A DNA stretch of 64,000 nt, taken from Entophlyctis helioformis. Taxonomy: Eukaryota > Chytridiomycota > Chytridiomycetes > Chytridiales > Chytriomycetaceae. The stretch is from the NCBI GenBank assembly GCA_025526915.1, contig JAHLKH010000038.1, positions 109,917 to 173,916 on the forward strand. The letters are read 5' to 3'. The notes beneath the pieces were generated by a model. That model worked only from the letters and a program-made list of their open reading frames with translations. It was not told the origin of the DNA and made no database searches. Position numbers and translations under genes: made by a program. Of this stretch, positions 39,396 through 64,000 are shown piece by piece (positions within the stretch are counted from its first letter, which is position 1; each line of letters opens with the position of its first letter).

Positions 39396-39522
39396 GGCCG
39401 TTGTTGCCTCGGTTGCTGTTGCTGTTGCAAACCCAGCTGCCAAGTGCGCCGACGAAACCCCCAACAAAACAAACGCACAAAGGTCTCCCAGCTTCAGCAA
39501 CCGACAGATCCACCAAAGACCC
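39396..39522. promoter_or_regulatory. 127-bp divergent promoter between SYG1 and the intronless unknown gene
   Basis: Separates the ATGs at 39395 (minus) and 39523 (plus). Mostly C/A-rich with no clear TATA element. Confidence 0.45.
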
Positions 39523-41595
39523 ATGAGCCACACAAAGATCATCTACCGTGGCAGCGTCTACGGGCCTATGCGAGCACCCACCACGATCAGGACCATCTGT
39601 GCGGTGCTCAAGATATCGCCTCGCGCATCACCGACCCTGCAAAGCGTCGACCGCACCGTGCCCATCGTTGTTGTTGACATCAATGCGCCGGTCGCATCCG
39701 GTCTCTACGAGCTCCTCTCACACCCCGACGTGGCCTACGATCAGTCGATTGACGGGCCCATGCTCGACCTGCGGCCGGCACAGATCCTGGACAACACGCC
39801 TGCCACGATCCATCGGTACTCGGCTCCCACCGACACGCCTATCATCTCGGGATCCCTGCTCGCCAAGACGGACGCTTCGGCTGCCGTGCGTCCGATTTCG
39901 GGCGGCCATGCATCGGCGGGCGGCATGTCCAGCAATGACGGCCAGATGCACCTGCCAAACACCAAACAATTGCCGCTGGGCAAGACCGAAATGGATGCGT
40001 GTGTCGGCGCCATGGTGCAGCTCATCTCGTCTATTCCGCCGCGGTATGTCAAGTACAACAAGGTGCTCTCGGCGCAGATCGACTATGCCATGCGCGAGGT
40101 CGATCGTCTGCAGAGCGTCCTCTCCCGCCTGACCCAAAAAGTCGACGAGGCGACCGCCAAGCTGCACCATGCCACGCCGACCCATGGCGGCATTCTGGCA
40201 CCGACGCCGCCCGACAAAACAAGCGCAACAGCAGGTGCACCGGCACGGCCACGGAAACCCATGACGGCGGCAGTGCCGCTCACGATGCACGTCACGTTCA
40301 CACAGTTCCGGATTGTGCACATCCTGTACGAGACATGGAAGACGGTGTGGAAGCGGTACTCGCCCGCCGTGCGGTCCTTTAACATCTCCAAGATCCAGAC
40401 GGTGCACTCGATCGAGATGGCCGAACACTACCTCAACCAGCTGTGGTCGTGGCGGCGGATTCTGGACGCGCGCACATGGGATCGACTGCAGCAGTCTGCC
40501 ATCGCCAACGGCACCATGGGCCCTGCCGCCTTGTCTGCTGGTACGAGCACGGGTGTCGGCGCTGCTAGTGCGTGGGGGGCAGGCGCAGGCCAAGACATGT
40601 CCAAGCAGGCAAAGTTCCGCGGGTACGCAGTGCCGCCTATCGGCGTGGCGCGACTGCTGGAACCTCCGGCCCTGCCCAGCGGCGAGCATCCCCGCGCATG
40701 GGAGTATCTGGTCCAGCCGTCGCCTTCGCTTGTCGTTGAAGACGTTGACGGCGCAACACCCACACCCCAGTCAACGACGCGGCTGGTCGTGCGTCTCAAC
40801 GAACAGACAACGCTCCGCGAGTTCCGCCAGATCTTTATTGACGCGATCCTGCAGCACCGCATCTACCGCGACGACGAGCTGGACTGTCTGCTCGAAGAGC
40901 TGATGGGGCTGGACAAGATTGCGCGGCAGCATGTGTTCAATTCGTTCAGGTCCACCAAGATGGGCACGAGTGTCATGGCCGGCGACCAGCACGACAACAC
41001 GGACAGTGATCTAACCGACGACGTTGTTGTGTATCCCACAGCGTTCATCAGGAACGCGATCCGCTCCGAGTTCCGGATCCACTGGACATCGCTTGACGAA
41101 GAACAGGCAGCGTCAACAAGTGCCATGGCGAACGCGGCACGTCCGACATTGTCCAAAGCGTCCAGTGTGGGCGATGCCCTGTCCCCTGCGTCCATCTCGA
41201 CATTTGCGTCAGCAGCAGCGGCCGAAGCGGTGCATGGCAACAAGGCACCAACATCACGGCCGACAACAGGCGCACCGCACACGATCCAACCTGGCCAGCT
41301 GCCCGCAACCAACAGCACTCTGTCGCACGCAGCTGCAGCGACACAGTCGCGCATCCGGCAAGTGGTGCGGCTGCAACACAAGGACCTCGTGCAGAGATTC
41401 AGGGCCGTCGCGGCGTCAGGAGCTGCAACAGCAAACGCAACCACATTGCAGCAAGCCGACTTGTATGTCCCGCGATCTGCGCACCCTGTGGCGCTGTCGA
41501 TGCTCCCATCTGCTGAGCCTCGGCCGTCAACAACAGCCACAACAACAGCAACCACAGCGACAGCAGTAAGACCATCGGCGAGCATCCGCGTTTGA
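39523..41595 (+). CDS. Uncharacterised intronless protein (690 residues)
   Basis: Not recognised. A single exon, unusual among intron-rich neighbours. Starts MSHTKIIYRGSVYGPMRAPT. Two regions look folded: residues about 150-340 (MDACVGAMVQLISSIPPRYV, a coiled-coil-like heptad stretch MREVDRLQSVLSRLTQKVDE, then FRIVHILYETWKTVWKRYSP and MAEHYLNQLWSWRRILD) and about 420-480 (TLREFRQIFIDAILQHRIYR, LDCLLEELMGLDKIARQHVF). The rest is Ala/Thr/Ser-rich and probably disordered, with a Thr/Ala tail. No signal peptide or membrane span. The last 43 codons lie within the inverted duplication and are repeated, frame intact, at the right edge. Its position beside epsilon-tubulin in both copies hints at nothing more than linkage. 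An in-frame ATG-like extension upstream is rejected because it overlaps SYG1 exon 1. Confidence 0.7.
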   Translation: MSHTKIIYRGSVYGPMRAPTTIRTICAVLKISPRASPTLQSVDRTVPIVVVDINAPVASGLYELLSHPDVAYDQSIDGPMLDLRPAQILDNTPATIHRYSAPTDTPIISGSLLAKTDASAAVRPISGGHASAGGMSSNDGQMHLPNTKQLPLGKTEMDACVGAMVQLISSIPPRYVKYNKVLSAQIDYAMREVDRLQSVLSRLTQKVDEATAKLHHATPTHGGILAPTPPDKTSATAGAPARPRKPMTAAVPLTMHVTFTQFRIVHILYETWKTVWKRYSPAVRSFNISKIQTVHSIEMAEHYLNQLWSWRRILDARTWDRLQQSAIANGTMGPAALSAGTSTGVGAASAWGAGAGQDMSKQAKFRGYAVPPIGVARLLEPPALPSGEHPRAWEYLVQPSPSLVVEDVDGATPTPQSTTRLVVRLNEQTTLREFRQIFIDAILQHRIYRDDELDCLLEELMGLDKIARQHVFNSFRSTKMGTSVMAGDQHDNTDSDLTDDVVVYPTAFIRNAIRSEFRIHWTSLDEEQAASTSAMANAARPTLSKASSVGDALSPASISTFASAAAAEAVHGNKAPTSRPTTGAPHTIQPGQLPATNSTLSHAAAATQSRIRQVVRLQHKDLVQRFRAVAASGAATANATTLQQADLYVPRSAHPVALSMLPSAEPRPSTTATTTATTATAVRPSASIRV

Positions 41596-42024
41596 TCCCA
41601 TCTTGCATCTCGTCCGACACCAGTTCAACGTCTTGGGAACAGCACCGACAGATGAGCCAGAGCATTGTCCTGCAAGGTACTCTGGGCTTGGCGGCCTGTC
41701 TGGCCTGCACCGGCTGGCATGGTCAAGACCACTACAGCAGCTGCATGCATGCATCGCTCGTCTGCCAATAAACTGTGCGGTTGTGTCTGACGCTCTGCTG
41801 TGTTGCACAGTCGGCCAGTGTGGCAACCAGGTCTGGCCTTGCTTGCACGGCTCCAACGAGCCAGCTTGCCCAAGCTGAGCACCACAAGGCGTCTGCGCAC
41901 CGCATGCTCATGGGATGGCTGACATGGATGGCTGACATGGCGGCTGGTTGCACTGCGCAGATTGGCGGCCGGTTCTGGGATCTGGTGCTGCAGGAGCAGG
42001 CCATGTACAACCGCTCCGGCATCT
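41467..42024 (+). repeat. Inverted duplication, left arm
   Basis: Reverse-complement match to 63448-64000. By eye I count four substitutions (for example 41571 T versus C) and two small indels (1 and 4 bases) over about 555 bases, so about 99% identity. The arm covers the last 43 codons of the intronless gene, its 3' flank, and epsilon-tubulin exons 1-2 and part of exon 3 with both introns. The inner end is a sharp break at 42024; the outer end is limited only by the window edge on the partner side. Confidence 0.95.
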
Positions 42025-42165
42025 GCGATCGAGCGGAACGATCGCGTGCTTGACGCGATGACCAACACCAGCGCGCATCTGCTGCTTGCCATGCCGAGTG
42101 ACCAGTGGGCGAGTGGGCACGTGGGCAGATGCAAGACGTGGCTGGGCAGATGACCGACGGCCGGT
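41652..42165 (+). pseudogene. TUBE1: Decayed epsilon-tubulin copy
   Basis: Exon 1 (MSQSIVLQ), exon 2 (VGQCGNQ) and the start of exon 3 (IGGRFWDLVLQEQAMYNRSG) are near-identical to the intact gene. At 42024 the sequence jumps to a diverged version of the internal exon that in the intact gene encodes KAKDRAFDTMNNIVANLLLN; here 42028-42130 reads roughly as DRVLDAMTNTSAHLLLAM. It then matches the following intron to about 42165. About 930 bp and then about 820 bp of the intact gene are missing. The frame entering the junction stops at 42051-42053. No GTP-binding loop remains, so it cannot make a tubulin. Confidence 0.85.
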
Positions 42166-42340
42166 CGCTGCCCCTGCTGCTGCCCTTGCCACACGGCCCG
42201 CATCTCCAGCCCTTGCACCGTGCACGGCCCCCGCACTTGCCCCCCATCTCCCGTCCCTCTTCCGTGTCGTCCGTGTCGTCTGTGTTGTCCACGACGTCCT
42301 GCATGCCCGCATCTGGCCTCGTCGTGGTTGTGGTGGCGGC

Positions 42341-42522
42341 CGTGCACCCAGCCACCTGTGTCCAGCAGCCGCCTGTGCCCACCCAGCCGGCCAGCCCAGA
42401 CTGCGGCGCATCTTGCTTGCACGTGCAGCCGCGGCTTCGACCGCCGCTCCATAACCAAACGGCGCAAATGGACGACGACGGGCCGAGCTCGCCCGGTGCG
42501 CGAACAACGTCCAGCACCGGCA
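42341..42522 (+). repeat. SulP-A 5' segment duplicated upstream of CLASP
   Basis: Inverse match to 61378-61555. The part around the start codon (from 42468) is identical for about 55 bases and the upstream part about 80% similar. It includes the SulP-A 5' flank and its first 18 codons. Confidence 0.88.
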
Positions 42523-45500
42523 CGGGGCCGAGCGTCGGCGCTGGCCTGATGGTGTCGCCCGTCATGCGCCCGCGCAAGCACGGCACGCTGGTGCCTGCCC
42601 GCTCGCACTTTGCCCACAGGCGCTCCGAGGACCTGTCTGCATGTGCGTGCCTTTGTTGTTGCTGTCTCACGCACGTCTCACGCCCGTCTCACGCACATCG
42701 CGCCATCGCATTCCATCGCGGCCGATGACGGGCGAGCGAGCGTTCGTTCGTGCGTGATTCATCCGTTGAAGCTTCGCTGACGCTGCCTTCTTGCCCCGCT
42801 TCTGCCCATCCATCTGCCCATCCATCTGCCCACATCGCCATGCTGTCTCACGAACGGCCGTCTGCGCCGCCGTCCGTCTGTCTCTCGCCGCCATCCACCT
42901 CGCCAGACTCGCTCGCATCCGACGCCGCCTTCTCTTTCTCGGGCGAGGAGATAAGACGGGTGCGTTGCTGATGACGCACCGATCTGGCATGTGAAACCTC
43001 GTGCATGCCCCTTGCTGCCCCTTGCATGCCCCTTGCATGCCCTCAATCTGCCCTCCAGCCTGGCTCACCACACCGTCTGCAGCAAAGCGTCAACTGGGCC
43101 TTCCAGGAGCTGTCCATGACATCGCAGACAAGCCACCTCTCTTCCAGATCACAGCAGCAGCGTCGCCCAACACTCAACAGCGACGGCCAGCCTGCCGATC
43201 TCGCCACTTCAGCCGTCAGACAGTCTCACGTGCAGCCTGCATCCCACCAGCCGCATCACGATCCGTCGGTGCCGTCTGGCTCTTCGCTGCGCAGTCGCAA
43301 CGCCGCTCGCCAGGACTTGGACACAGCACTGAGCGCGAAGCTTGACAACGTTTCGCAGCTCAGCCAGCAGATCTCCCCGTCACCAAAGTCTCTGACGCCA
43401 ACGGCGCACGCCATGAACGTGGGAAAGCGTTCCGGCTTGGCTGCGAACGACAGCCAGCCAGTATCCAACCGGCATGCAGCTTCTCGAGACGTCCAGCCGC
43501 TGGGATGGTTTGACAACGATGCCGCGATTGGGTCGCCGTCGGCCGATCCTGGCAGTCGCATGCACTACACCGACCATGCCAGTATGGAGGAGCAGTTCTT
43601 TGCCGGTCATATCATCAACGAGGAGACGGCGCAACTCGGCGGGCAACACCACTACAACTACGGCTCGCTTGACGACGACGAGGGCAACTACGCTGACGAC
43701 GATGACGAGGGCGGTCGCGACAACCAATTGCGGCGTGCCTTGCTTGCGCGGCACGTGCAACGTCAGCATCTGCAGAGTGGCGCGGCACCAACTCCATTAT
43801 CGCAGCATGCTCGCCAAGAGCCGTATCCGACCATCGAGTTCGACCTCAGCAGCCCGCATGGCACGCCTGGTGGGTCTGGCGGCCCTCCTCCTCGCAGAAC
43901 CGGTCCCGGCGGCCCCGGCCGACCCTCGCAACAGCCGCAATCCCCATTCAAGCTGGCCATGATGCGTCAGGGCGAATACGGCTTGGTTGCCCTCAAGTCG
44001 GTTCCGGCAGTCTGCCTTGCTGTTATTCTCAATCTGCTGGATGCGGTATGTGGCACCATACGCTTGCGGGATGTAGTGCGCTTGTCGTTTGCACTGGAAG
44101 CATATGCCATGCTTACAGTCTGCTCCATGCCTTGTGCTGGCCCCCTAGATGTCGTACGGTATCATCATCTTCCCTGCCTCGGACCAGCGCGTCCCAGCCA
44201 CGGCTGCACAGAGCGGCATCTCCATGTTCCTGACAAGCACCATCATCTCGCAGATTGTCCTCACATTCGGCGGATCGCAGTTCAGAGGTGCAGTCGGCAG
44301 CATGATGATTGAAGTCATGCCGTTCCTGCACATCATCTGCGCCACCATCGAAGCCAAGATGCCGGACGCAGACACACACACGGTCACTGCCACCATCATG
44401 GTTGCTTATGCCATGAGCACCATCATGACGGGCCTTGTTTTCATGGCTCTCGGCGTCTTCAAGCTCGGCAGCCTCATCCAGTTCTTCCCTCGCCACATTC
44501 TGGTTGGCTGCATTGGCGGCATTGGCCTGTTTCTGCTGTTCACGGGCATCGAAGTCACGGCGGGCGTCAAGCCAGGTATGGCACTGACGTATCTGTGGGA
44601 CATCTTCCAGCCGTCTGCGCTCAAGCTGTGGGGATCGAGTCTGGCAGTCGCACTCGTTCTCAAGACCATACAGCGGCACATCTCGCATCCGCTGCTCGTG
44701 CCCGTCTTTTATGCGACTGTCCCGGCCATCTTCTACGCGATCGTGCTGCCCCTGGGACTGTCGATTGACAGTCTGCGACAGTATGGCTGGCTGTTTGATC
44801 TGCCTGCGTCTGCAGACACGCCCTTCTGGACGTTCTGGACGTACATCGACATGGGCGTCGTCAACTGGAGCGCCGTTGCAGCGACCATCCCAACCCAGAT
44901 GGCGCTGTCCTTTTTTGGCATTCTGCACGTGCCCATCAACGTGCCGGCACTCGCCGTGTCGACCAAGCAGGACGTTGACCTGTCGCGCGAGATCATTGGG
45001 CACGGCATCTCCAACATTCTTGCTGGACTGGCTGCCACACCGCAGAATTATCTCGTGTATTCCAACTCGCTGCTGTACATCCGATCTGGCGGCGACTCTC
45101 AGATCAGCGGTGCGCTGCTCACACTTGCCACCGTGCTGCTGTGGATCAAGGGCAGTACCGTCATTGGCTATGTGCCGACTATTGTCGTTGGCTCGTGAGT
45201 GTTTGTCTGGCTTGTCTGCATGTGTGGTGCTGATGATCACATGCCTTTGACTCACGTTTGCACCACGTGCGTGCGCTGGCTGCTCAGGCTCATTTTCCAC
45301 CTCGGCATCGATCTGATCACAGAGAGCGTCATTGACACGTACTATGTCGGCATTCACCCCCTCGAGTATGCCACCATCTTAGTCATTGTTGCCGTGATGG
45401 GGGTCATTGGCTTCACAGAAGGTGTCATGGTCGGCATCATGCTCGCGTGTGTCTTTTTCGGTGAGTGGCCTTGTTGCAGCACACTGCCATGGATAGGATG

Positions 45501-46803
45501 CCACCAGCGATACTGATGCTACGCTATCCAGTTGTCATTTACGCGCGGCGGTCCATCATCCGCGACAGCTTCTCTGGAACACAGCTCCGCTCAACCGTGC
45601 ATCGTCTCTACCGCCAGCAGATCTTTCTCGACAACTGCGGCGACCAGATCCACGTCATCAAGCTCCAAGGGTTCATGTTCTTTGGAACAGTCGGCCAGGT
45701 CGAGGCGCACATCCAAAACGCGTTTGCGGCACGGCCAGACATCAAGTACATTGTTTTGGACTTTGGTCTCATCAGCGGCATCGACTATTCTGCGCTCGAG
45801 AGTTTCCAGCGTATCAAGCGGATCCTTGCGAGTCGGCAAGCGCATCTCGTGTTCTGCTCGCTTGGCGCGTTGCAGGACAATCTGGTCAAGGCGGGAGTGT
45901 TTGACATCCAGGTGGAGGATGACGAGGACGGACATGGGCAGCATGGCCAGCGAGGGCATGCAGACATGGAGTCGCCTGACGGAGATCGCAGGTTACACGC
46001 ATCGTTTGTGAACAACTTTGAGACGTTGGATGGTGCGCTCGAGTATTGCGAAAACTGTCTGCTTGAGACGTTTTACGCCAAGACTGGCAGCCGGCTCAAG
46101 GAGCCGCGGTCTGCCCCCATTCCCGCTGTCACGGTTGCTGCTGTTACTGCTGGCAGTGGTGCAGACACGCTCGCTGTTCCTGGGCTCACGCTTGACATGC
46201 AGACGCCGCGACAGCAGCATGCCCAAGACGTCGCATCTCTTATTCTAAAGGGTGAGTGTGCATGCGACTGTGTCGGCGATGGTAGATGGCTGGCACTGAC
46301 AGACATGTCATGCAGAGCATCCGCCGATACCACGATCGCACCGCGATGTTGCGCGGCCCATGTCCGTTCTGATGCAAGCCTTTTCGGAAGTGTCCGAGTT
46401 CCAGTCTGTGCTTGCGGACCTCTGCGGCACGCACTTTGAGCTCGTGCACGTGCTGCAGGGCGAGACGCTCTTTTCGGTGGGCGATGCGTCAACCGAGCTG
46501 TATGTCGTCGAAGAGGGCGAGGTCGTGCTGGCCATTCCCGACGGCCGATCGGGCGAGCGTGTGGTCGAGACGCTGCTCGCCGGCACGATGGTGGGCGAGC
46601 TGGAGATGTTTGCCGACCGGCCGCGTGCGTGCCGGCTGTACGCGACACGCGATACGATGTTGTGGCGGCTGGACAAGACGGTATTTGACGAGCTGTGTGC
46701 CGAGCATCCTGCGCTGATGCTGCAGTTTGTGACCAAGGTTGCGCTTGCGTTTGATGCGGTGCGGTACTATAATACACTGAGGCACTGGGCACAGCTGCGG
46801 TGA
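42468..46803 (+). CDS. SulP-A: SulP/SLC26-type transporter with STAS and cyclic-nucleotide-binding domains
   Basis: Anion or amino-acid transporter of the SulP superfamily, resembling fungal SulP-STAS-cNMP proteins (yeast YGR125W/Vsb1 group; comparison from memory). Exons 42468-42642, 42772-42959, 43083-44045, 44149-45194, 45288-45460, 45532-46251 and 46316-46803 give 1,250 residues; all joins keep frame. Residues 1-430 are a long hydrophilic N-terminus, Ser-rich then acidic (YGSLDDDEGNYADDDDEG). The membrane domain begins at about 430 (SVPAVCLAVILNLLDAMSYG) with many spans, including FPRHILVGCIGGIGLFLLFT. The STAS domain follows (HVIKLQGFMFFGTVGQVEAH, IKYIVLDFGLISGIDYSALE). The C-terminal cNMP fold (about 1,110-1,240) contains GETLFSVGDASTELYVVEEG and GELEMFADRPRACRLYATRD. 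The phosphate-binding-cassette Arg of true cAMP binders is partly replaced (FADRPRACR), so ligand binding is uncertain. AATAAA occurs at 46836. Convergent with SulP-B. Confidence 0.93.
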
Positions 46804-46979
46804 GGTTTGCAGTGGTAGGCTGCGGTGGGATGGGCAATAAACCGTGACTACCAGAGTGGCGATCTGGGCTGTATTCATTGGGCGACAAGGACGACGAGAT
46901 GGGACGAGCGTGGGATACAAGCGGTAGGTGTTGTGCACAAGAAATACAGCAGATGAACGAAATGGAGTGCGAGATGCGT

Positions 46980-49900
46980 CTAGTGATGGGCAGGCTGCGG
47001 TGCGGGCAAGTCGCTGTGCGGCGTGAACAGCGCCGACAGCGGCAACACTCTGTCCTCCTCGTGGCCGCGCTCATGCTGGCGCGTCTCATGGACAGCAGCG
47101 GCAGGCCGCACAGCCTGGATGGCATCGCTGACCGAATCAAACACATTGTGGCTGCCCAGCAGCGCAAGGAGACCCGAGATACGGAACAGCCGACGCTGAA
47201 AGTCGTGGAGCCCCGTGAACACTACGCGCGTGTGCTCCTTGTCGTGGAAACTGTGGATGATCTCCTGCAGCACAAACAGCGCCGCCGAGTCCTGTTTGGT
47301 TGGTTTGTTGACCGCAGGGTCGCGTTGCTGTTAGTACGGGCCGCGGTGCACACACGCCACACGCGACGCAAGGAGAGAGGGAGGGAGAGGGATGACGGAC
47401 CATGTCGATACAGGCACTAAAGTCGAGAATCAGCACAAAGGTTTTCATGCCGGCCGGCACGGTCAGATTGACGCCGCTGATGCTGTGGATAGACGCCTGG
47501 TTGAGGTCCGAGTTGTTGCTCATGTGGGTCATGTCGACCGCAACCTGCTTGATACGCGACACGCGAGGATTGGTGAGGAGCGGGTCGGCCGATGGATTGG
47601 CTCCCGTCGCCGGCGATGTGGTGGTCGAGACAGAAGTCAGGGACGGCTGGATGCCCGACACAGAGACATCGGTACTGGGACCGGCGGTTGTAGAGATGCC
47701 ACCGGTACCGGTGGCCATCGAGTAGGATGACGTGGACGAGGACGCCGTAAGCGACGCGGTCGATCCAGAAGTCTTGAGCTGCAAATGCGTCTGGCTCTGA
47801 CGACGGATCGTGTCGTAGCCCGTCTGTGGCAGCATCGATCGCCTGTTTTTAAGAGTAAGCTCGCTCTCTGCGGCTGCAGCAGGTGCCTCGAGACTGTCGA
47901 GCTTCTCGTCACTGGCTCCGCTGCGGTGTGTCGGCAAGGAGGCCGGCGTCTCGGATTCGCCCAGCTTGGTCAGGTCAATCTCGGACGACGAATGCTCCAG
48001 ATGCCGCTCAATGTCGGTTGCGTCCGTGATGCCGTTCGCTTGCAGCTTGAGAAGCTTCTTGTCCGTCTTGAGCAGATGTTGGATCGTGCGTCGGATGCGG
48101 CCCGAGTTGTAGAACATGAGCGGCCCACGGATCTGTAACGGGAGGATCCCCTCGAGCACCTCTGCACTCGAGTGCTCCTTGACATCCACAAGCGTGATCT
48201 CGGTGCCCAGAGGATCCTGGCTGTGCTTGTGGCAGAGCGGATGCGCGGGTACATCGGCCGTCGACGACGGTTTGGATGGCAGCTGGCCCAAGAGAGCCAT
48301 GTCGACCGCGCTTGTGCGACGCACGATGATGAGCACGGCAAGCAGCAGACACAGCAGAATGCCCTGCGAGATGCTCGTGAAGAACGTGATGGCCCACGTG
48401 GCCAGGAACATGAGGATCTCGGACCAGCCGCGCACCTTGAACACGAAGAAGATCTCGTCAAACTCGATGAGGTTGATGGCGGCGTTGAAGACAATGGCCG
48501 CGAGAATGGGCTTGGGGAGGTACTGGAGCACGTTGCCGAGAAACGTGAACAGCACGAAAACAAACGCGGCAATCATGAGCCCCGACACCGTGGTCTTGCC
48601 GCCAGCATTGGCCAGGATGCGCGAGCGCGGCAGTGATCCAAACGTGACATAGGCACCGAGCATGGACCCAACGACATTGGCGGCACCGAGAGCAAACAGC
48701 TCCTGGTCGCCCGACGGAAAGTATCCATTCTTGAGGCCAAAGTTGCGGGTGACGGTCTGGGACTCGACAAAGCCGACAATGGAGATGGTGATGGCAGACG
48801 ACAGCAGATTCTGGATGAGTGCCATGTTGATCGGTGGTGCGGTCGGTGCACTGACGCGGTTGTTGAAGATGCCCAGAACACGGATGCCGCGGCTGCTAAA
48901 GTCGAGCGTGGCCGAAAGGACAATAGACAGCACGACGAGGATGAGGATCTCGGGGATCTGCATGACCCACGGCCGCTTCTTGGCGAAATGGAGTTTGCTG
49001 TACTTTGCTGTGATGAGAAAGGCGAGACCGACGAGGCCGACTGCCAGACCTGATGGGCTTGCTGATGGGAGGGCTTTGAGGGACTTGACAAGCTTGTCGA
49101 GTGTGGACAGTTCGGTGTGGGGTCCTTTGACCTTTTCAAGCGTGAGCGCGAGCATTTCTGGCAGCTGCTCCGTCATGATCAAGCAGGCGACCGACAGCAC
49201 AAATCCAGTCTGCGGTGCGCGAACGAGTCGAAATGGTGGCGGTGGCAGTGCAGGTCTGTCAGTTTGTGCACTGTGCCAGTCAATCGCCAGATCTGGGGCT
49301 CATCTGGGGCACATCTGGGGCACATGACCAAGATGCCGCTGGTGCGGGTCCACCGTCCCAGAGCGGCACTTTGAGACCGGGTGCACGGAGGAGATGCAGA
49401 CAGATGGGCACACAGATAGCAGAAGGACTGCCGCAGGACGAACGCCACCAGACTCACCAGCAGGTAGCCCGAAAGGATGTTGTCAACGAAGCCTGCGCGC
49501 AGGACCCAGAGGATAAGGCATATCATGCCGACCATCAGGGTAGGATCGAGGCGACCATGGCTGGATCTGAAGGAAGCAGGTTTTCGGGCACGGCCTCGAC
49601 CGCAACGCCGACGAGAACGCTTGAAAGCGCCTCCGGCCCTGTGCAGCAAGGAACGTTGCGAGTGAGTCATGGCTGACCAGAGGGATGTGCACCGACAGGC
49701 CGGCAGATGGGCAGGCAGGTGGGCAGGCAGATGGGCAGGCAGGCAGATGGGCAGATCCATGCGTTGTTCTTGAGCGCATCCATGCCCCCACGCCCATCCA
49801 ACACGAACGTGCACGTCTGGCGGCACGGCATGGATGGCGCCGTCGGCACTTACCGAGTGAGAGCTGCCTGGAGGAGCCAAAGACGGCATAGACGAACACT

Positions 49901-50238
49901 GGGAAGCAGGCCGACACGAGTGCCTTGATGGGCTCGACACGGGCCAGCGAGCTGTAGGCGATGGACTGCGGAATGAGCACAAAGGCCACGGTGATGGCGG
50001 CACCGAGGTCGGCAAAGAACTTGGCACGGTCGTAGGCTGCCAGCTCGCCGACGATTGGAAAGCAGGCTCTGGCGAGATGGCCGAAGTTGACGGCCTGCAG
50101 CGATGCGACGGGGGCCTCCCAGAACTTGGCCAGCTTTTCCTCAAAGGTGTCGTGGCGCTCGAGAGGCAGCGTGCTGCCGTCGTTATCGACCGTCACAAAG
50201 GTGCGCAGCAGCGTCTTCTTGCGAGTCGTCGAGCTCAT
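46980..50238 (-). CDS. SulP-B: sulfate permease-like (SLC26) transporter with split STAS domain
   Basis: SulP-family anion transporter, distinct from SulP-A and without a cNMP domain. Exon 1 (49854-50238) encodes MSSTTRKKTLLRTFVTVDND and the first spans with IPQSIAYSSLA. Exon 2 starts at 49638 (GPEALSSVLVGVAVEAVPEN). The main exon (about 49210-47400) carries ILANAGGKTTVSGLMIAAFV, FNAAINLIEFDEIFFVFKVR and a final hydrophobic segment. STAS strand 1 (LQIRGPLMFYNSGRIRRTIQ) is separated from the rest (FVLILDFSACIDM, VDSAALFVLQEII) by about 190 Ser/Thr-rich residues, comparable to the intervening sequence in animal SLC26 STAS domains. Near 49540 the frame breaks: AMVASIL runs into a stop while LMVGMICLILWVLRAGF continues in another frame, as if one A were missing. 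The last exon ends PAPQPAHH at 46980. About 900 residues if the frame is repaired in the organism. Confidence 0.88.
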
Positions 50239-50691
50239 GGTAGATCGAGCGACCGATACGATGAGGATAAGGGGGTGAACAAGTTTATTGGTCCGAGGGC
50301 GGTGCAACGTTTGGCCAGCATCAAGTGGCACGGTTGGATGGATTGGCGGAGATACGAGCGCCGAGGCGGAGACTGGGCGGGGCTGTGTGCACTGTGCACC
50401 ACAATCGTAGGCGCTGCCGTCGCTGCTGTCGTCTTTGCTGTCGTCGGCGATGGCGAGGGATGCGGGTGCACATCGCATGCCACCTGTTCCACATCGCATG
50501 CCCCCAGCAGCGTCCCGGTCGAGTCGGAGAAATGGCCGCCGTGTATGTTGGAATAATCCGTCGCCCAAAATTCTGACCAGCGATTCCAAAAACCGTGAGT
50601 CGCTTCGCAGCATGACACAGCGGCCAAGACGACTGACACCTGCCCATGGCTGCGTGGCAAGAGCGACAGACAACAGACAGCAGACGTGCAG
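50239..50691. other. Divergent promoter region between SulP-B and MIA40
   Basis: No gene seen. It contains CTGTCGTC-type repeats (about 50410-50445) and repeated CATCGCATGCC units (50475-50505). Confidence 0.5.
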
Positions 50692-51075
50692 ATGAGCTAC
50701 GGCCGCGAAGACACCGAAAAGGACATTGTGCTGTTCCTCACAGCCGAGGATGCCGTTGCGCCGTCGAGCGAGTCGGGCGCTACATCCACAGCCGCAGCAG
50801 CCAACGAGGCATACAACGAGGCGACGGGCGAGATCAACTGGGACTGCCCGTGCATTGCGCCGATGGTGCAGCCGCCCTGCGGCGAGGTGTTCAAGGAGGC
50901 CTTCTCGTGCTTCGTCTACAGCCAGGAGACGCCCAAGGGCATCGACTGTGTCGAGCAGTTCCGTTCCATGCAGTCGTGCTTCCGGGAACACCCCGACATC
51001 TACGGCGCCGAGCTCGACGACGACGAGGACGAGGCTGGCAGTGCCGACCAGAAGAAGGAGGGCGGCAAGGCATGA
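50692..51075 (+). CDS. MIA40: MIA40/CHCHD4 oxidoreductase of the mitochondrial intermembrane space
   Basis: Import receptor and disulfide donor of the MIA pathway. Single exon, 127 residues. The start MSYGREDTEKDIVLFLTAED aligns with animal CHCHD4, supporting this ATG. The redox CPC motif (INWDCPCIAPM) is followed by a twin CX9C helix pair: CGEVFKEAFSC and CVEQFRSMQSC. An acidic C-terminal tail (LDDDEDEAGS) ends at a Lys-rich stretch. There is no N-terminal membrane anchor, unlike the long yeast Mia40, so it is the short animal/plant-like form. A GTGCAG just before the ATG resembles an acceptor, so a 5' UTR intron is possible. ATTAAA lies at 51321-51326. Confidence 0.95.
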   Translation: MSYGREDTEKDIVLFLTAEDAVAPSSESGATSTAAAANEAYNEATGEINWDCPCIAPMVQPPCGEVFKEAFSCFVYSQETPKGIDCVEQFRSMQSCFREHPDIYGAELDDDEDEAGSADQKKEGGKA

Positions 51076-54400: not shown

Positions 54401-55772
54401 GTACAACTATCGCATGATTGACAGCCATGTCGTGTTCGAGACGCTGTACCTGCTACTGCGGTTCGGTCATGGTGAGTCGAGTTCTTGTTTCGTCTTTGCG
54501 TGTGCCATTGCATGTGACCAACAGCTTGTCCACACAGAAAACGGCGTGCCGCTTCCCAGCAATCCGTCGCCGCTTGATGCGCCGCACGACTTTTTCAGAC
54601 TGCGGCTGGCATGCACAGTGCTTGACACGTGTGGCCAGCACTTTGTCAAGGGCGGACCGATTGGCCGCAAGCTCGACGACTATCTTGCGTTCTTGCAGAT
54701 GTACCTTTTCACCAAGGTCACGCCCGTGCCGATGGATGTCGAGTTTTTTGTGACCGAGACCCTCGAGTTGCTCAAGCCCGATCTGCGCTTCTGCGAGACG
54801 TACGAAGAGGCTGTTGCGGCCGTCAACCGCATTGCTGCCGAACAGATGAAAGCGCTCCAGGATGCCCAGGCTGCGGCTGCGGCTGCGGCTGCGGCTGATC
54901 AGTCGGTTGCTGCTGGATCGTTGACTGGCCAGCCGACAGCGGGGGCAACTGCTGATGATGCAGAGGATGTCGAGCCGGATGAGGAGAGCGACTTTTATGG
55001 CGAGGAGAGTCTGGCCATGGACGGCGACTCCAACTCTGATGTTTCCGACTCTGAGGACGACGAGATCGACGAGGACGCTGAAGGTGACGAGGATGACGAA
55101 GACGACGATCTTGAAGAGGACGACGAGGACGGCCGTGACGATCAGTTCATGGGCGATGAGGACGAAGACGACGAAGTGATTGTGCACCTGCAGACCCCAG
55201 TGGTTACGGAAGAGGACTACGAATTTGAGCAAGAGTATAACCGCATGATGCAGGAGTCGCTCGAGAGCCGCAAGGGCGATCGCAAGATTGCTTCGTTTGA
55301 TGCCCCCATTCCCATACGCCGCAATCTGCAGTCTGGCGCTGGTGGCGATGCAGGCGAGAGCCAAGTCGAGGCTGGGCAGATTGCGTTTACTGTGCTGACC
55401 AAGCGCGGCAACAAGCAGCAGGTATGCACGCTTGGCTGGGATGGTTGCTGTGTGGCGGCTGACACAAGATGCGCCGTGTAGACACGGACCATGGCTCTGC
55501 CAACGGACAGCTCGCTTGCAATCAGCACGCTGTCGAAGCAGCAGGCCGAGCAGGAGGAGAAGACTCGTCTCAAGGAGTTGGTGCTGGGCTACGAAGAGCG
55601 TGAGCGCAACCTGTTTTTACAGCGTAAGTTGGACGTCTGAGGCTGCCTGGTGTATGCTGTGGCGCTGACGAGTTGGCCACGCACAACAGAGAGCCGGTTT
55701 GGCGCAGTAAGAGGAGGCCGCGGCAGAGGCCGTGGCTCGCATCGCGTCATTTGGAGCTCGTCGTCGCGGTGA
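51441..55772 (+). CDS. UPF2: UPF2/Nmd2 nonsense-mediated decay factor
   Basis: Bridges UPF1 and UPF3 in nonsense-mediated mRNA decay; cytoplasmic/perinuclear. Ten exons, about 1,190 residues. Exon 1 (51441-51525) joins exon 2 at 51706 to give VAKPDPSLYAKLDGSIKKNT, the conserved LDxSxKKNT start of the first MIF4G domain. The second MIF4G lies at about 52980-53640 and 53693-54470 (LLRLPNCLNRDAIDQLAIEF, LLPYYSRLIATLNPYMPDIG, ETRYAFMIDNAIYETNPPEV). The third is at about 54020-54860 (LRLACTVLDTCGQHFVKGGP, LDDYLAFLQMYLFTKVTPVP). A long acidic stretch (about 54960-55190) precedes the UPF1-binding tail (EEDYEFEQEYNRMMQESLES, MALPTDSSLAI). The last exon (55689-55772) is RG-rich (GAVRGGRGRGRGSHR). A second acidic insert lies at about 53230-53300. 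Confidence 0.94.
51557..51648. repeat. CAGTAGTGCAGC-type tandem repeat in UPF2 intron 1
   Basis: Five or so imperfect 15-nt units (CAGTAGTGCAGCAGC variants) fill the centre of the 180-nt first intron. Confidence 0.85.
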
Positions 55773-56140
55773 TCACCTACATCGGTCAGTCAAGGCGCAC
55801 CTGAGCCGAGGCATTTGCCTTGCCATGCATGGCCCCCAGTCCTGCGCTTCCATGGCTGCCACAACACCACGACCACCGCATCTATTTGACCACGACAGCG
55901 ACACCAGTGACCAGCACGTGCATGACCAATCATGCCCACATGCCCACGGATCAGCAAGCAGTTTGCTGCCGCCTCCCACGCTCACGAGCATGTCGCTCGA
56001 CAACGCTGCCTGCTTGTCTGTCTCTCTGTCTGCAGGCCGTGGTGCAACACTGCTGGCCGGCTGGCACTCTCAGTGCAAGTAAATGGCGCATTGCAGCATG
56101 CCCGTTCATTCCTTGAGCACAGCCCGAACCCAGCCACCAG
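55773..56140. other. Intergenic region between convergent UPF2 and CLASP
   Basis: No gene seen. It contains a CTGTCTCTCTGTCTGCAG-like tract (about 56015-56036). It forms both 3' UTRs. Confidence 0.55.
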
Positions 56141-59100
56141 CTACATGTGCGTGTCAACAAGACGGCGCTTGGACCGCTGCACATACACTTGCAGGACCTT
56201 GCACTGGTTGTGTGTCAGCACACCCTCCACATGCGTCCAGATCCCGTCCCCAAGGACGCGGGAGACGTCGACCAGACAGTCAATGGTCGCCTTGCGGATC
56301 TCGGCACTGTCCGAGTTGATCGAGTCGGCTGCTATGGCCATCAGATCGCGCATCCACTTGAGCCCATCGCCCCCAGCAGCGTCATCTCCTGCCGACATCC
56401 TGTCCGCCACAAGCCGCCCAAGTACACCGAGCGCCGAAGCAGCTGGTGCGGGCTTGTATGTATAATCCGTGCCACTCCCGCCACTGCCTCTACCATCCAC
56501 GCGCCGGCGGACACGGCGGCCCGGGTCGCTGGGGTCGTCGAATCGCCACGCAGCCAGCATGCCAAGCAGCGCAGCAAGAAGCGCATGGTGGTCAAGGGCT
56601 TGCATCGCGCGGCTCAGGACGGCGTCGGCGCTGCCAGATACATGGCCGGTGCCATCCGATCGGCAGTCAAAGAGGAGCTCCAGCAGATTGGACTCGAGAC
56701 CACTGAAGGCCGGCCCCTGGTTGCCAACCACTTCACCAAGCAGCATCAGACAGTTTTCTTGCAACCCATGATCCTGATCGTCATGGGCGGTTGCCGCGTC
56801 AGTGGGTTGGCCGGTGCATGCCAGCGTTGCGGTTAACGACGCGACTTACGGTTGCGGGGTTCTGGATGATCTGGGAGAGGGCGATAAAGAGACCGCGGGC
56901 ATGGAGACTCCAGTGTGGGAGTGTGTGCGGATGGCCGGCATCTTGGCGGGACAGCCGGAAGAGCCGTCGGAGGGTGCTGTGAGTGGCTGCGCCAGCACTC
57001 AGCTGTGTGACCATCTGCGCGAGCTCATCTGGCTGTCTCTGCTGCACAGGCGTGCCGTTCAGCACTGCACATGCAGACCAGCACAAGCCATGCGTGCCAG
57101 TCAGTCCGAGCGACGCGATGCATGGCCACAGGGCAATACAAACTCACGCTGGTCCATGGCGTGGCGGCTCATGCTGCGCGGCTTCACTGGCGTGACGTGC
57201 TCCTGGACAAGCCGCTGAAGCGGGCCAAGAGGCGGCGGCAGCGCATGCCGTGGATGGCTAGCGTCGACTGATCCCACCAGGCCCGAGACGCCCACGTGGA
57301 CCGCGTCCGTTGTGCCATGGTTGGTGTTAGGCTGGATCGACGGCAGCTGCCGCGATGGCGTGTAAGGCGTGCTCATCGCAACAAACGGCTCACCCTGCAC
57401 GTCGCCGTGCAAGCCATCGCGATCTGCCGCCTCGTCAAGCATCGCTGTCGCTGTCGCTGCTGCTGCTGCAAGACCGCCCGCCCTTGTCCGGCCAGCACGC
57501 CTGCTGAACTCACTCGCCTCGTCCTCCTGGTCGCTGAACGCTGCCATAGTTGCTGCCAACCCACGAACGTCCTCGCGGCCCATGCCGTCGTCCATATCGT
57601 CATCAAACTGCATCTCGCTATCGGACGCCGCCTGGCTAGACGGACCAGAGCGGCCCGTTGACGTCAGCAGCACGCTCGTCTCTGCAAACCCGTACGGCAG
57701 TGTCTCCTGTCATCACAGTCAGCACCGGCAGTTGTCAGCACCAACCGTCTACTCCAAAACGCAATCAGATCCATTGGCACTTGCATTCAGCACATCGCCG
57801 TCCGACACGAGCCCGTGCTCATCAACGTCAGAACCATTCGGCTCGTGGCTCTCGATCTCGCTCAGGTCACCTCCGATCGCGTGCTCGTGGAGCGTGCCAT
57901 GGTGTCGCATGCTGTCCGCATCCTGACCGCGACCGAGCGACGCGCGGCGAGGCGACACAGCATCATCCATCGTCCCAGCATTTGCCTGCTGCTGTGACGA
58001 CCTGTTGCGTTTGGGCGTAATCTCCGACATGTCCTCGGTATCCATGGAAATGCGGCCATGGTCGTCGCTGTCTTCAAGCTCTTCAGCAGAGGGATCGGCG
58101 ATGCCAAGAATATCGCGCACTCCTTCGGCCAGCTCATAGTCGAACGTGTCAAGAGCACGTCCAAACACGGCCGAGAACGATCCAGCCAGTTGGCCCAAGA
58201 TGGCCCGGAGAGACTCTTCGGCACCCCGGAGCGCAAGACGGCCCGTGGTCAGCGGCACAAACTTGTTGAGACAGCCGCGCATTCTCGGGTCGTTGCCAAA
58301 GAAAGACTCGAACGCTAGTGGATCGCTGGCAGCCCAGTCAGCAACCAGCGACTCGATCCACGCAATCAGCAGCACGTTTGTCGCCTTGACCGTCGCTGGA
58401 TCGCGCTGCACACCGGCCATGCCTGCTGCGGCTGCTGCCAGGCGACCTCCACGGCCGCTTGGCGGAGGTCGGCGGAATTTCGGGCCAGCGACTGCGATCG
58501 GGTTCACATGGCCAATGAGATGATCAAGGAGATCAGCGGTGTCGGACGTCATCGTGATGTGGTGCATGTACTTTTCAAACAGCGGCTGGATGCCCGACAC
58601 CTTCCCGCGAGCTGCCATCGTCACCACGGGCATGACCGTGTCCATCTGTGCGAGCAGACTGCTGTCAAACAGAACCTGCAGGTTCTCCAGCCGCATGAGA
58701 GACAGCGTCATGCCGTCGGACGGATCGGTGTACAGGTCCATGAGATGCTGCTGCAACACCAACGTGGCGTCTGGTCCCCAGGGCAAATCGTGCATTGCTG
58801 TGGCTGCATCCCGCGCTGTTTGGATCAGGCTATCAAACCCTTGCCGCTGGTCGTCTGGGCTGGCACTCTTGAGCATGGCCGCAATGGACTCCTCTGGCAT
58901 CGCGGCTGGCTTTGGCTGCGAGGATGAAGGCGACATCGCCGGCACAGCCCATCCCGGCGTAGCCTGCTTGATGGGGCTCGAGACTCTGTCCTGTGTCTTT
59001 GACGGAGTAGCACTGTGGGGGGCAGAGTGGCCGGGCGAGAGTGACGCGGATCGCGCCATGCTGCTTTGCGGCGATCGGCCGGTCTTGGCTACCGTGCTGG

Positions 59101-61293
59101 CTCGTGCAGGTGCAGCAGCAGGGAAGGGATCAGCCACCACAGCAGCGGTGCTTTGTATGCGCGGAAGGTTCAGCTTGGTGGGTGCTGGCTGCTTGTGGCG
59201 AGCAAGAGCCTTTTGGGCCGGAGCCTCGAGCAAGCTCACCAGCCTGGCGTACCGCTCAGGCCAGCCCGACTTGAGAAAGAAAGCCGCATCGCGACTTGCG
59301 TCGCGCACTGCGCCGTTGGCGTCTTGGACCGACTTCTTGAGGCACTTTTCGGCAACGTCCACCATGCCCGTCCGCTCGGCCAGCTGCCGGTTTTGTGCAT
59401 TGGATGCCAGCCGCTCCATGAGAACGCGAAGACACTCTGCAGCCACCTGCCGCACGCTCTGGCTCTTGTCTGCTAAGCCTGCTGCAAAGTGAGCCAGATA
59501 CTTGGGCTGCAACGTGGCAGTGTACACTAGCACTTTGATGGCGTTGACGGCGGCCGACACAATCAGCTTCTTGGACGATCCCGAGATCTTGATGAGGTTG
59601 ATCAGTAACGTGTCCACGTGTGGATCAAGAGGGACTGGCGCGGCGGCTGCAAGATCAACAATGGCTGTGCAGCAGGTGATGACCAGGGCTGTGCGTAGAC
59701 TATGAAGCGTCCTGCTGACGGGCTCGATGATGGCCTTGAGGCCGTTGGCATAGCCTTGTGTTCTGGGAGAGTCGCCGCGCACGAGACCGCGAAGCCTTTG
59801 GAGGGCTCTCTCGCGCGACTCCCAATTCTCTTCGGTCTCGCGGCCGTTGAAGAGCTGGCTGAAGATGCTGCATTCGGCCTCAAAGTCTCTTGGATAGGCA
59901 AGCTGCAGGGCACATGTGCTGATAAGTGGCGATGCCCAGATAATGGCGATCATCCATCGTCAAAGTGCAATAGACTGACCATAATCGCAGTCGGCTCTGA
60001 TGCAGCTGTGCCTCCGCTGACAACACCAGCAGGAGCAACATCCAGGGTCTTTGCAGCGGTCGATGCTGGCTCGACTGAAGCAGGTTTGGCCGCTGGCGTT
60101 GGCGAAGAGGACGCTGAGCCAGGCTGATCGACCTGCCGGATATGGATCAAGGTGTTAGCAGCCAATCACGCAAGGACAGAACCGCCAAGGAGTCCTACAT
60201 CGGCTGTTTGGTCTTGGTCATCGCGTAGCTGGGCAGTGATGGAGTCGACAATGGACTGCCGAATCTGCTTCTTGCCGAGCTCCCTGCGAATGTCTGTGCG
60301 CATGGCGCGGTTTGGAATGGTGCTGGTTGAGCCGAGAACGGCTGATGAGCAATCCAAGAACCCCATCTTGCAAGCCGGTGCGGGCATGGTAGCTTACTTG
60401 TAGAGGCGAATCAGGCCGTCGCGACTGACAGCGCGGACAGCCTCATTCGGGTCTTCAAGGAGGCGCAGCAGGAACGGCATCCATGGCTTGAGCGAGAACT
60501 CGTGCAGCGACTGTGCTACTGTCATGAGCCACATCAGCGACTGCTCGCGAGTGCGTGGGATCTTGCTTGAGAAGGCATTGGCTCGGATCTCCTTGTCCAG
60601 ATAGACGAGCATGCTGGCGAATGGGTTGCTGCTGGAATAGCCGCCCTCGACTCCGACGTCGTGAGCATGCCCTTGGCTCTGGCCATGCCGTCCAGCGCTG
60701 ACCCGATCGGTCATGTCGTGCAAGGCATACTGCCGATGTACTGCGATGTACAGCTCGACCAGCCCTTCCAGAGCGAGTTCGCGGCAGCGGTCTCGTGCAT
60801 CGCCCAGCTTCTCGACCAGCAGCGGCACAAGCAACGGCAGGAGCACCTTTAGATGGTAGACCACCGTGCGGGAAGTGTCGACGACTGCACCGACAAGAGG
60901 GCAAACAAGCTGCAGACCAGCGATTGCCATCTTGGCCTGCGGCGAGCGGACGGCTTTGGTGACACTGTCCACCACTTGATCGTACAAGTGTGGCTAGTAG
61001 TGGGCCACAGGAGCAAGGCAAGAGCAGACTGGTCAGCTGCCATCAAGGCATCCAAAGACAGCAGCGCACCACAGGGCGGAACCCACTTCGATGTCCTCCA
61101 GGCTGAGCTCGTCTGCCTGTGCGTGCAGTTCTTGCAGGGCAGCAAACCTGTCCTCGAGGTCTGCCAGAAGACGGCGTAGCAGAGCGTCAGTGGCAAGAGC
61201 GAGCGGCCAGCAGACAAGCCAGTGCAGGGGGCAAGCGCACGCACTGCTGGAGATAGCGGCAGCACAAAACGTCGTCAGCAGCGGCGGCGGCAT
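56141..61293 (-). CDS. CLASP: CLASP-family microtubule plus-end protein (TOG domains)
   Basis: Microtubule rescue and stabilisation factor (animal CLASP, yeast Stu1, fission yeast Cls1). Roughly 1,550 residues in about eight exons. The proposed start at 61293 gives a helical first exon (LRRLLADLEDRFAALQELHA). The first TOG region (about 60990-60400) includes LPLLVPLLVEKLGDARDRCR and MWLMTVAQSLHEFSLKPWMP. The second (about 59930-59230) has FSQLFNGRETEENWESRERA, the CLASP TOG2 hallmark, and KYLAHFAAGLADKSQSVRQV. A Ser/Pro linker with SSPIKQATPGW (about 59000) precedes another helical array. The C-terminal exon (56780-56141) is the CLIP-interacting TOG: SAEIRKATIDCLVDVSRVLG, then HNQCKVLQVYVQRSKRR. 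The splice near 57770 is uncertain; without it the protein would end at 57749. The start is the weakest part; a SulP-A relic lies just upstream. Confidence 0.85.
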
Positions 61294-61377
61294 CTCTCGT
61301 GATCGTCTGTCCGACAGTGCAAGCGCGTTCAAGTCGTTTCATTCGTGTGTCCGGCAACCGTCGCTGCTGGATCTGCT

Positions 61378-61555
61378 GCCGGTGCTGGACGTTGTTCGCG
61401 CACCGGGCGAGCTCGGCCCGTCGTCGTCCATCTGCGTTGCTGGCTGTGGAGCGGCGGTCGAAGCCGCGGCTGCACGTGCAAGCAAAATGCGCCGCTGTCT
61501 GGACAAAGGTGGCTGGACACAGGCGGCGGCTGGACAAAGGTGGCTGGGTGCACGA
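61378..61555 (-). pseudogene. Truncated SulP-A 5' fragment
   Basis: Minus-strand copy of the SulP-A 5' flank and first 18 codons (start codon at 61429-61431, MDDDGPSSPGARTTSSTG), after which similarity ends at about 61378. The downstream frame closes about 12 codons later. It sits between the epsilon-tubulin stop and the CLASP start, on the same strand as both, so if transcribed it would be a short upstream reading frame for CLASP. It contains an internal direct repeat of GGACAAAGGTGGCTGG. Confidence 0.85.
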
Positions 61556-61577
61556 CTATGACCACACTGCCGCCCCT

Positions 61578-63816
61578 TCAACCCCGGCAGCCCGCCTCGT
61601 GCTGGCCGTACTCGCTGATCAGGCTGCGCAGACTCGCCCGTGCCTCGTCAAAGTCGCCCGTCTCCATGTGCTCCAGGTAGTGGTGCAGGTTGGCCTTGCG
61701 GCGGTACAGCTTCGTGAACCGGTCCGCGACGCGGCCCAGCACGACGCGCATGCTGCAGTTGTTGGACAGCGACAGCAGCGCGTGCGGCTGCCCAATCGGC
61801 GGCACGCTGCACAGCCCCGTCTTCCATCCGTCCACGTTCCATGGCACAAACCGCAGCGTCTTGCGCATCCTGCTCAAGGACCATGCACGTGCACGGACAC
61901 ACAGACACGCTCAGCTGTCAGTGCCATTCGACATGCACGCGCAGCACACGCTGGCCACGGCACACTGACCGGTCAATGTTGCGTCGCAGATCAGACACCT
62001 CGACGGCCCCGCGCACAATCAGCGCGCTCGCCAGGTACACGCTGCTGCGTGGATCGACCGACACCAGCTGGCTCTCGGGTGAAAACGCGTCTGCAAACAT
62101 CTGGTCCAGTCTGTCGCACACAATCCATCCGATCCAACGCATGCCGTCAGTTCCACTCGTGTGCGTGAGTCTGGAGGGATCAACTGCGTCAATGACATCC
62201 ATCGCGCAACGAGCCAAACTCACCGTCGCGGTGCGACTCGGACATCGGTCAGCGTGTACAACGGCGTCATGCTTGAAAACAGATACTTGAGCCGAGGAAA
62301 CGGCACCAGGTTGGTGACAATGTCGTTAATGTCCACATTCATGTTGCCTTCAAAGCGTGTCGAGCTGCATCATTCGGTCATGATCCGGTCAGCCGTCTGC
62401 CCAGCCATCCTTCTATCTCACTCGCCCACTCGCCCACCTCGTCATGTTGAGTAGCAGATTCGCCACGATGTTGTTCATCGTGTCAAACGCGCGATCCTTG
62501 GCTTTGACAACGCTCGATCGCAGCAGCCCGGCCGTCTCCAGCGCCGTGCTGTCCGTGATGGCGCTGCCCTTCTTGCGCGCCAGTGGCCCAACATCGGCTT
62601 TGGACTGGATGCGGTCGTAGATGGCCGCGAGTGCCTGGTTGTCGACGGGCATCACGCAGTCGGCACTCTGGTCCATCTGTCGCAGCGACATGATGCTTTG
62701 AACAGCAACCACGGTCAGCCACAGACCACCAGCCACTCTCCGCGAGGCATAATGCCGCACAGATCGCATGCAGCCAACACACACCTGTTGTAAGGAGATG
62801 TGACGACATCGTCGTTGGGACTCGGCACAATCCCGGCAACAAAGCGATAGATGGCGGGGTAGTAGTCGGCAAGCAGCCCGAGCGTGTACGATCCCAGCCC
62901 AGACCCCGTGCCGCCGCCCATCGAGTGGATCACAAAGAACGACTGCAGCGTGTCGCAGTACTCGGCCTGGCGCCGCACAGCCTCCAGGATGGTCTCTGCA
63001 TACTCTTGGCCATACACGTGGTAGCCGACGGCCCAGTTGTTGCCGCTCCCCGACACGCTTGTGATGATCTGGTCGGCGTCAAACAGCTCGTGGATCGGGC
63101 TTCGCATGATCTGGTTGACGACGCCCTCTTCCATGTCGATCATGATTCCCTGGCGGGTTGGACGAGCCGGCTGAGCGTCAGTCCATCCGTGCACTCGCCC
63201 ATCCCTGCATCCTTGCATCCCTGCTGATCTCCCACTCACTCGAGCCTTGAGACCGCGGATGCGTGCAGTGCCACTGCCAATGCCGAGGTTCTGCTGGCCT
63301 CGCCTGTCGTCGGGCAGATGCTGTCGGTCAGCACTGCACACAGCCGCCTGCAGCCACCAACAGAGGGCCTGACAGCCAGCCAGACAACCGGCCTGCCAGC
63401 ACACCTCTCGTCAACGTGTCGGAAGAAGGACGACATGGAGTCGTCGTAGATGCCGGAGCGGTTGTACATGGCCTGCTCCTGCAGCACCAGATCCCAGAAC
63501 CGGCCGCCAATCTGCGCAGTGCAACCAGCCGCCATGTCAGCCATCCATGTCAGCCATCCCATGAGCATGCGGTGCGCAGACGCCTTGTGGTGCTCAGCTT
63601 GGGCAAGCTGGCTCGTTGGAGCCGTGCAAGCAAGGCCAGACCTGGTTGCCACACTGGCCGACTGTGCAACACAGCAGAGCGTCAGACACAACCGCACGGT
63701 TTATTGGCAGACGAGCGATGCATGCAGCTGCTGCAGTGGTCTTGACCATGCCAGCCGGTGCAGGCCAGACAGGCCGCCAAGCCCAGAGTACCTTGCAGGA
63801 CAATGCTCTGGCTCAT
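61578..63816 (-). CDS. TUBE1: Epsilon-tubulin
   Basis: Centriolar/basal-body tubulin needed for doublet and triplet microtubules. Exon 1 is 63792-63816 (25 nt), exon 2 is 63642-63661 (20 nt), exon 3 starts at 63511. Together they read MSQSIVLQVGQCGNQIGGRF, matching epsilon rather than alpha, beta or gamma. Epsilon-specific blocks: IYDDSMSSFFRHVDE, IMIDMEEGVVNQIM, SVSGSGNNWAVGYHVYGQEY, the GTP loop IHSMGGGTGSGLG, FDTMNNIVANLLLNMT, then FSSMTPLYTLTDV, LDQMFADAFSPESQLVSVDP, SDLRRNIDR, and WKTGLCSVPPIGQPHALLSL. It ends with LHHYLEHMETGDFDEARASL and a stop at 61578-61580. The joins after exon 3 (donor near 63402) and around 62300 are approximate. No frame breaks seen. Confidence 0.95.
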
Positions 63817-64000
63817 CTGTCGGTGCTGTTCCCAAGACGTTGAACTGGTTTCGGACGAGATGCAAGATGGATCAAACGCGGATGCTCGCCGATGGTCTTG
63901 CTGCTGTCGCTGTGGTTGCTGTTGTTGTGGCTGTTGTTGACGGCCGAGGCTCAGCAGATGGGAGCATCGACAGCGCCACAGGGTGCGCAGATCGCGGGAC
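63448..64000 (-). repeat. Inverted duplication, right arm (continues past the window)
   Basis: Partner of 41467-42024 in inverse orientation. Includes epsilon-tubulin exons 1-2 and most of exon 3, their introns and 5' flank, then the tail of a second copy of the intronless gene. Similarity is still complete at base 64000, so the true end lies outside. Confidence 0.95.
63872..64000 (-). CDS. 3' end of a second copy of the intronless uncharacterised gene (partial)
   Basis: The last 42 codons and stop (63872-63874), in frame, differ from the copy at 41467-41595 by one visible change (Val to Ala, GTA to GCA). The rest lies beyond the right edge. The intact frame over this short stretch is compatible with a functional paralog but does not prove it. 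Confidence 0.65.
   Translation of the reverse strand, partial: VPRSAHPVALSMLPSAEPRPSTTATTTATTATAARPSASIRV

Follow-up and report, generated by a model that had tools for sequence, protein, structure and literature searches.

The window analysed here, 64,000 bp in length, covers positions 109917-173916 of a 173,916-bp contig of Entophlyctis helioformis (C38) and is therefore the right end of that contig, with window position 64000 as its last base. It contains an uncharacterised intronless gene, one truncated and one intact copy of epsilon-tubulin, and several other genes, together with three pairs of inverted matches (blocks 1 to 3). The features, in window coordinates, are as follows.

39523..41595, + strand: uncharacterised intronless gene, left copy, complete (690 aa, P0121)
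41467-42024 (+) against 64000-63448 (-): block 1, comprising the 3' end of the gene, a short spacer and epsilon-tubulin exons 1-3 (part)
41652..42156, + strand: truncated epsilon-tubulin, with exons 1-3 to ...NRSGI, a junction, and a diverged piece of exon 6 with intron
42037-42156 (+) against 62499-62386 (-): block 2, on the right the end of epsilon-tubulin exon 6 and the next intron
42341-42522 (+) against 61554-61377 (-): block 3, on the right inside the epsilon-tubulin/CLASP spacer
42468..46803, + strand (outer limits approximate): SulP-A, a sulfate permease with STAS and cNMP-binding domains
Between the arms: two sulfate permeases (PF00916), a UPF2 gene (MIF4G, Upf2) and CLASP
56141..61293, - strand (lower limit approximate): CLASP gene (PF12348), annotated P0126
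61578..63816, - strand: intact epsilon-tubulin, nine exons, 470 aa (PF00091 and PF03953)
63448..64000, - strand: right arm of block 1, reaching the final base of C38
63872..64000, - strand: 3' end of a second copy of the intronless gene (last 129 bases, ending ...RPSASIRV*), the rest being cut off by the contig end

The two arms lie about 20 kb apart, with the second running backwards, and comparison of the window with itself gives three matches between them, all inverted and with their order kept on both sides. The first-pass annotation had reported three inverse matches in the same order, and all of them were found again where it had placed them. The continuation past 64000 that it had named as a check would lie outside the contig, since block 1 ends on the contig's last base. 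Block 2 has a local score of 76, whereas 300 first-order Markov resamples of the left piece average 24 (SD 2.6) and reach at most 36. The window contains two collinear copies in opposite orientation whose similarity exceeds chance, which is the pattern of an inverted segmental duplication. When 60000-64000 and 42025-42560 were searched across the assembly, no copy was found besides the two arms; the arm itself has four extra matches of 40-54 bp on other contigs, and the interior (42550-61340) has 13 matches elsewhere in the assembly, all shorter than 100 bp. Pieces of SulP-A and SulP-B, both PF00916, gave no significant alignment with each other.

The intronless gene had no match in a Pfam search with its 690-aa product. 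Its remnant on the right is in frame and carries one amino-acid change relative to the left copy. The right epsilon-tubulin model is 100% identical to the annotated protein P0001. On the left, epsilon-tubulin has exons 1, 2 and part of exon 3, after which 926 bp are missing (from exon 3 to exon 6), and the reading frame meets a stop after 45 codons. About 2 bp are common to both sides of this first junction (42024/42025), which is a plain deletion. The stretch between blocks 2 and 3, which measures 831 bp on the right versus 184 bp on the left, is not a plain deletion, because left positions 42161-42340 gave no match above shuffles when compared with the right copy. The locus has a single gene loss, that of epsilon-tubulin in the left copy only; the right epsilon-tubulin is intact.

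The shared spacer and the divergence of the blocks

The third match was said in the first-pass annotation to be the start of SulP-A. On the left, block 3 does contain an ATG (42468) in frame with SulP-A, whose PF00916, PF01740 and PF00027 domains fall in successive reading frames; further in-frame ATGs occur at 42549 and 42564, so 42468 is a candidate start. The match extends about 54 bp into the SulP-A frame and then ends. On the right, block 3 lies within a 284-bp spacer that runs from the epsilon-tubulin stop at 61578 to the annotated CLASP start codon at 61293. The annotated CLASP protein begins MPPPLLTTFCAAAISS, and this N-terminus from 61293 resembles, by eye, the N-termini of two relatives. 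We discarded a model that had the shared ATG segment as CLASP exon 1, joined by splicing to DLEDRFAAL, as the annotated CLASP starts downstream at 61293. No sign of a former SulP-A was seen when the right copy was examined for one.

The duplicated ancestral block of the first-pass annotation can thus be retained as the gene, epsilon-tubulin and the downstream spacer, without the SulP-A start, which is epsilon-tubulin/CLASP spacer. Likewise, epsilon-tubulin was lost on the left and kept on the right, as that annotation held, but its companion claim that the right copy had nearly lost SulP-A reduces to the overlap of about 54 bp with the SulP-A frame. A duplication resolved by reciprocal, complementary loss is unsupported: what had been taken for a remnant of SulP-A is spacer lying ahead of CLASP, and the only loss is that of the left epsilon-tubulin.

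The three blocks differ sharply in divergence. Block 1 has 4 substitutions in 553 aligned bases (0.7%) plus two indels of 1 and 4 bp, and the 250 bp adjoining the junction (41775-42024) are identical in both arms. Block 2 has 72% identity, with 24 substitutions in 112 bases (21%), and block 3 has 88% identity, with 17 in 178 (10%). Fisher tests separate block 1 from block 2 (p = 3e-16) and from block 3 (p = 5e-8), and the outcome is the same if 556 rather than 553 bases are used for block 1. These counts are not those of copies of one age, and they contradict the earlier proposal of one duplication event with a single age. Between blocks 2 and 3, too, the share of substitutions differs (p = 0.006), a gap that is not well explained by one neutral age. 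The last 60 bp of block 3 (42463-42522 versus 61377-61436), around an ATG, are identical, which has a chance of about 0.002 at the block's mean divergence of about 10%.

The jump from 0.7% to 21% coincides with the 926-bp deletion junction at 42024/42025 in the left epsilon-tubulin. Selection on protein fails to explain the near-identity of block 1, because it covers introns and the dead exon piece as well; the block has six differences, a single one of them in coding sequence, where the frame is preserved.

Gene order in relatives and a possible history

Among the matches listed, P0121 has at least five homologues besides itself, including one each labelled Polyrhizophydium stewartii, B. salamandrivorans, B. 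dendrobatidis and Hompol1. Two deposited proteins, P0123 from Polyrhizophydium and P0003 from B. dendrobatidis, are fusions with the gene N-terminal to epsilon-tubulin. In Hompol1 (HPOL), which we take to be Homolaphlyctis polyrhiza, the gene and epsilon-tubulin are separate proteins labelled 433 and 431 (HPOL_000433 and HPOL_000431). Judging from these deposited proteins, the tandem of gene and then epsilon-tubulin is probably ancestral in this group, and the right-hand side is therefore favoured as the old arrangement. The nearest fungal epsilon-tubulins among the matches listed are those of Batrachochytrium, Polyrhizophydium and Homolaphlyctis. NCBI taxonomy places Entophlyctis helioformis under Chytridiales, and Polyrhizophydium and Homolaphlyctis under Rhizophydiales.

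Linkage of CLASP to the gene, as distinct from adjacency, was judged from equal sizes of the contigs that carry them, using 90%-identity clusters. The two are on contigs of 805,177 in Polyrhizophydium and of 1,106,600 in B. salamandrivorans, and the sizes agree in two of the five species with both proteins listed. They disagree in B. dendrobatidis (for which the two entries may belong to different assemblies), Spizellomyces sp. 'palustris' and Powellomyces hirtus. Comparison of gene order in relatives, which the first-pass annotation had proposed as a way to find the ancestral copy, speaks for the right side through the tandem and extends to CLASP by linkage in two of five species. In a published comparison that includes E. 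helioformis and names strain JEL805, synteny between these genera is described as poorly conserved and the assemblies as fragmented (PMC11797018).

The explanation that we prefer, with somewhat less than even confidence, is an old inverted duplication in cis whose outer part was later homogenised, or copied anew, through exchange between the arms. The segment running from the gene through epsilon-tubulin to the epsilon-tubulin/CLASP spacer would have been duplicated in inverted orientation long ago, with the second copy placed upstream of SulP-A. The right-hand copy would be the ancestral arrangement, with its working epsilon-tubulin retained. The left epsilon-tubulin would then have lost 926 bp from exon 3 to exon 6, and beyond this the 831 bp of the right copy would have been replaced on the left by the 184 bp with no recognisable match. 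The remainder on the left would have decayed to diverged scraps and to the copy of the spacer that now reaches the beginning of SulP-A. The outer segment, made up of the gene and the 5' part of epsilon-tubulin, would be about 99% identical through exchange between the inverted arms, and this exchange would end where pairing ends, at the deletion junction.

We infer a shared chromosome for the two arms, an ancestral right side, and gene conversion as the cause of the homogenisation. Gene conversion predicts a step in divergence at the junction, because pairing ends there; the same step is also predicted by a recent joining of old and new DNA, or by an allelic block 1. Against a duplication in cis, block 1 stops at the contig end, and no other contig was found with the missing portion of the second gene copy, 39340-41470 occurring once in the assembly. 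An extension of the preferred explanation, which we consider distinctly unlikely, is that the arms still recombine, so that the 19-kb segment with SulP-A, SulP-B, UPF2 and CLASP flips and is polymorphic in the strain, and that SulP-A gained its upstream region, start codon and first 18 codons from the spacer.

Redundancy in the assembly and alternative readings

The inverted repeat is real in the sequence, but part of it may come from the genome assembly. As a control, 39 ends of 90 bases were taken from 20 contigs across the size range (20 starts, including that of C38, and 19 ends), and 37 of them were assessed after two simple-repeat ends were left out. At least 17 of the 37 recur at a second site with 97% identity or higher across 86 bases or more; part of this count is a lower bound in which the best 40 of 625 candidates were scored, and several of the 17 resemble dispersed repeats, with three or more places. 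For the left end of C38, no second place was found among the best 40 of 625 candidates. Three of the 20 sampled contigs, C220, C330 and C380, have both ends inside a larger contig (C106, C133 and C9, respectively) with order and orientation kept, and these have the appearance of redundant and perhaps allelic contigs; the spans that match measure 14.1 kb versus 19.8 kb in the case of C330. Aligned pieces give 99.5% identity for C220 (2 kb), 99.9% for C330 (2 kb) and 99.5% for C290 versus C22 (2 kb). C380 and C9 are 94.4% identical including gaps (8 kb), with 130 substitutions in 7,767 aligned bases, a divergence not significantly different from that of block 1 (p = 0.11).

The assembly therefore contains uncollapsed, near-identical contigs whose divergence is comparable to that of block 1, as in false heterotype duplication. 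Uncollapsed alleles assembled as duplicates are a known class of error (PMC9516828). Gene counts from this assembly may be inflated by the pairs C220/C106, C330/C133, C380/C9 and C290/C22. Two other contig ends were rejected as parallels to C38. The end of C12 matches its own interior in direct orientation (97.8% over 1.7 kb) and is probably a repeat, its sequence being also on C243; the start of C190 is a repeat that matches an inverted array on C190 and other contigs. The start of C430 resembles, by eye, integrase-type retroelement coding sequence and is on two other contigs at 99%, and the last 90 bases of C110 are nearly all TTAGGG telomere repeats.

Because several contigs of the assembly are redundant copies, the second arm may be an allele rather than a second locus. 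An assembly artefact from haplotypes, which the first-pass annotation had itself raised as a caveat, is accordingly a live possibility. In its explicit form, which we regard as somewhat unlikely, the two arms are alleles of each other, the strain being heterozygous for an inversion that spans the 19-21 kb between them. The contig would switch haplotype inside the interior and end on re-entering its own DNA, with block 1 then unduplicated. One haplotype would carry the flank, the gene, the broken epsilon-tubulin and SulP-A, and the other CLASP, epsilon-tubulin and the gene. C38 does stop inside block 1, and the remainder of the gene does occur once; the recurrence of 17 of 37 contig ends at 97% or more, the nesting of 3 of 20 sampled contigs and the similar divergence of C380/C9 all fit as well. 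Against this reading, no second contig with the interior or the SulP-A side was found: a search of the assembly for one with either of these or the left flank gave just short matches, the longest for the left flank being 219 bp at 71% (best 39 of 293 candidates). Moreover, the collinearity on the left across the 926-bp junction would be coincidental unless an older relic was already present. The smallest contig in the assembly measures 10,105 bp, so anything shorter than about 10 kb was probably left out, and this alone could account for the absence of the rest of the second copy of the gene. We take blocks 2 and 3 to be an old inverted copy in which one epsilon-tubulin was lost, and not alleles, since their divergence greatly exceeds that of the redundant contigs used for comparison.

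A recent staggered-break inversion, leaving the region from the gene to epsilon-tubulin exon 3 duplicated at either end of a flipped segment of 19-21 kb, appears quite improbable. Here the young copy would lie beside an older epsilon-tubulin relic next to SulP-A. Breakpoint duplications by staggered breaks have been described in Drosophila, where the mechanism leaves inverted copies at the segment ends with a functional gene at one of them (PMC4965816). Block 1 is young and ends abruptly, as this mechanism would have it, but the model requires an old relic of this gene that arose independently, is correctly ordered and lies exactly at the other break. Very improbable is a library or assembly chimera, in which the 42024/42025 junction or the contig's final 553 bases exist in no chromosome: the assembly is redundant and fragmented, but assemblers require overlaps far longer than the roughly 2 bp shared at the junction, the sole coding difference among the six in block 1 keeps the frame, and relatives predict a copy of the gene upstream of epsilon-tubulin on the right.

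The locus shows in compact form that an inverted copy can pass for reciprocal gene loss if spacer DNA common to both copies is taken for part of a gene, and that allelic redundancy may give a fungal assembly the look of a duplication. Should the arms truly be in cis, the locus would also offer a small natural test of inverted-repeat gene conversion that stops at a deletion, and possibly a leader captured by a transporter gene.

In comparison with known systems, the locus resembles an inverted segmental duplication with ordinary loss of a duplicate, in that the copies are collinear and inverted, with one gene intact and the other truncated. It departs from ordinary duplicate loss in that divergence is unequal along the copy and one arm lies at a contig end. 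The gene-sized inverted copies at both ends of the segment, with a working copy kept, are like the staggered-break duplications of Drosophila (PMC4965816); unlike in those, an older and diverged part continues collinearly beyond the young block. Finally, the divergence of about 1%, the position at a contig end and the redundancy elsewhere in the assembly are like those of false (heterotype) duplications (PMC9516828), whereas the copy described here is inverted within one contig and runs into blocks whose divergence exceeds that of the redundant contigs examined.
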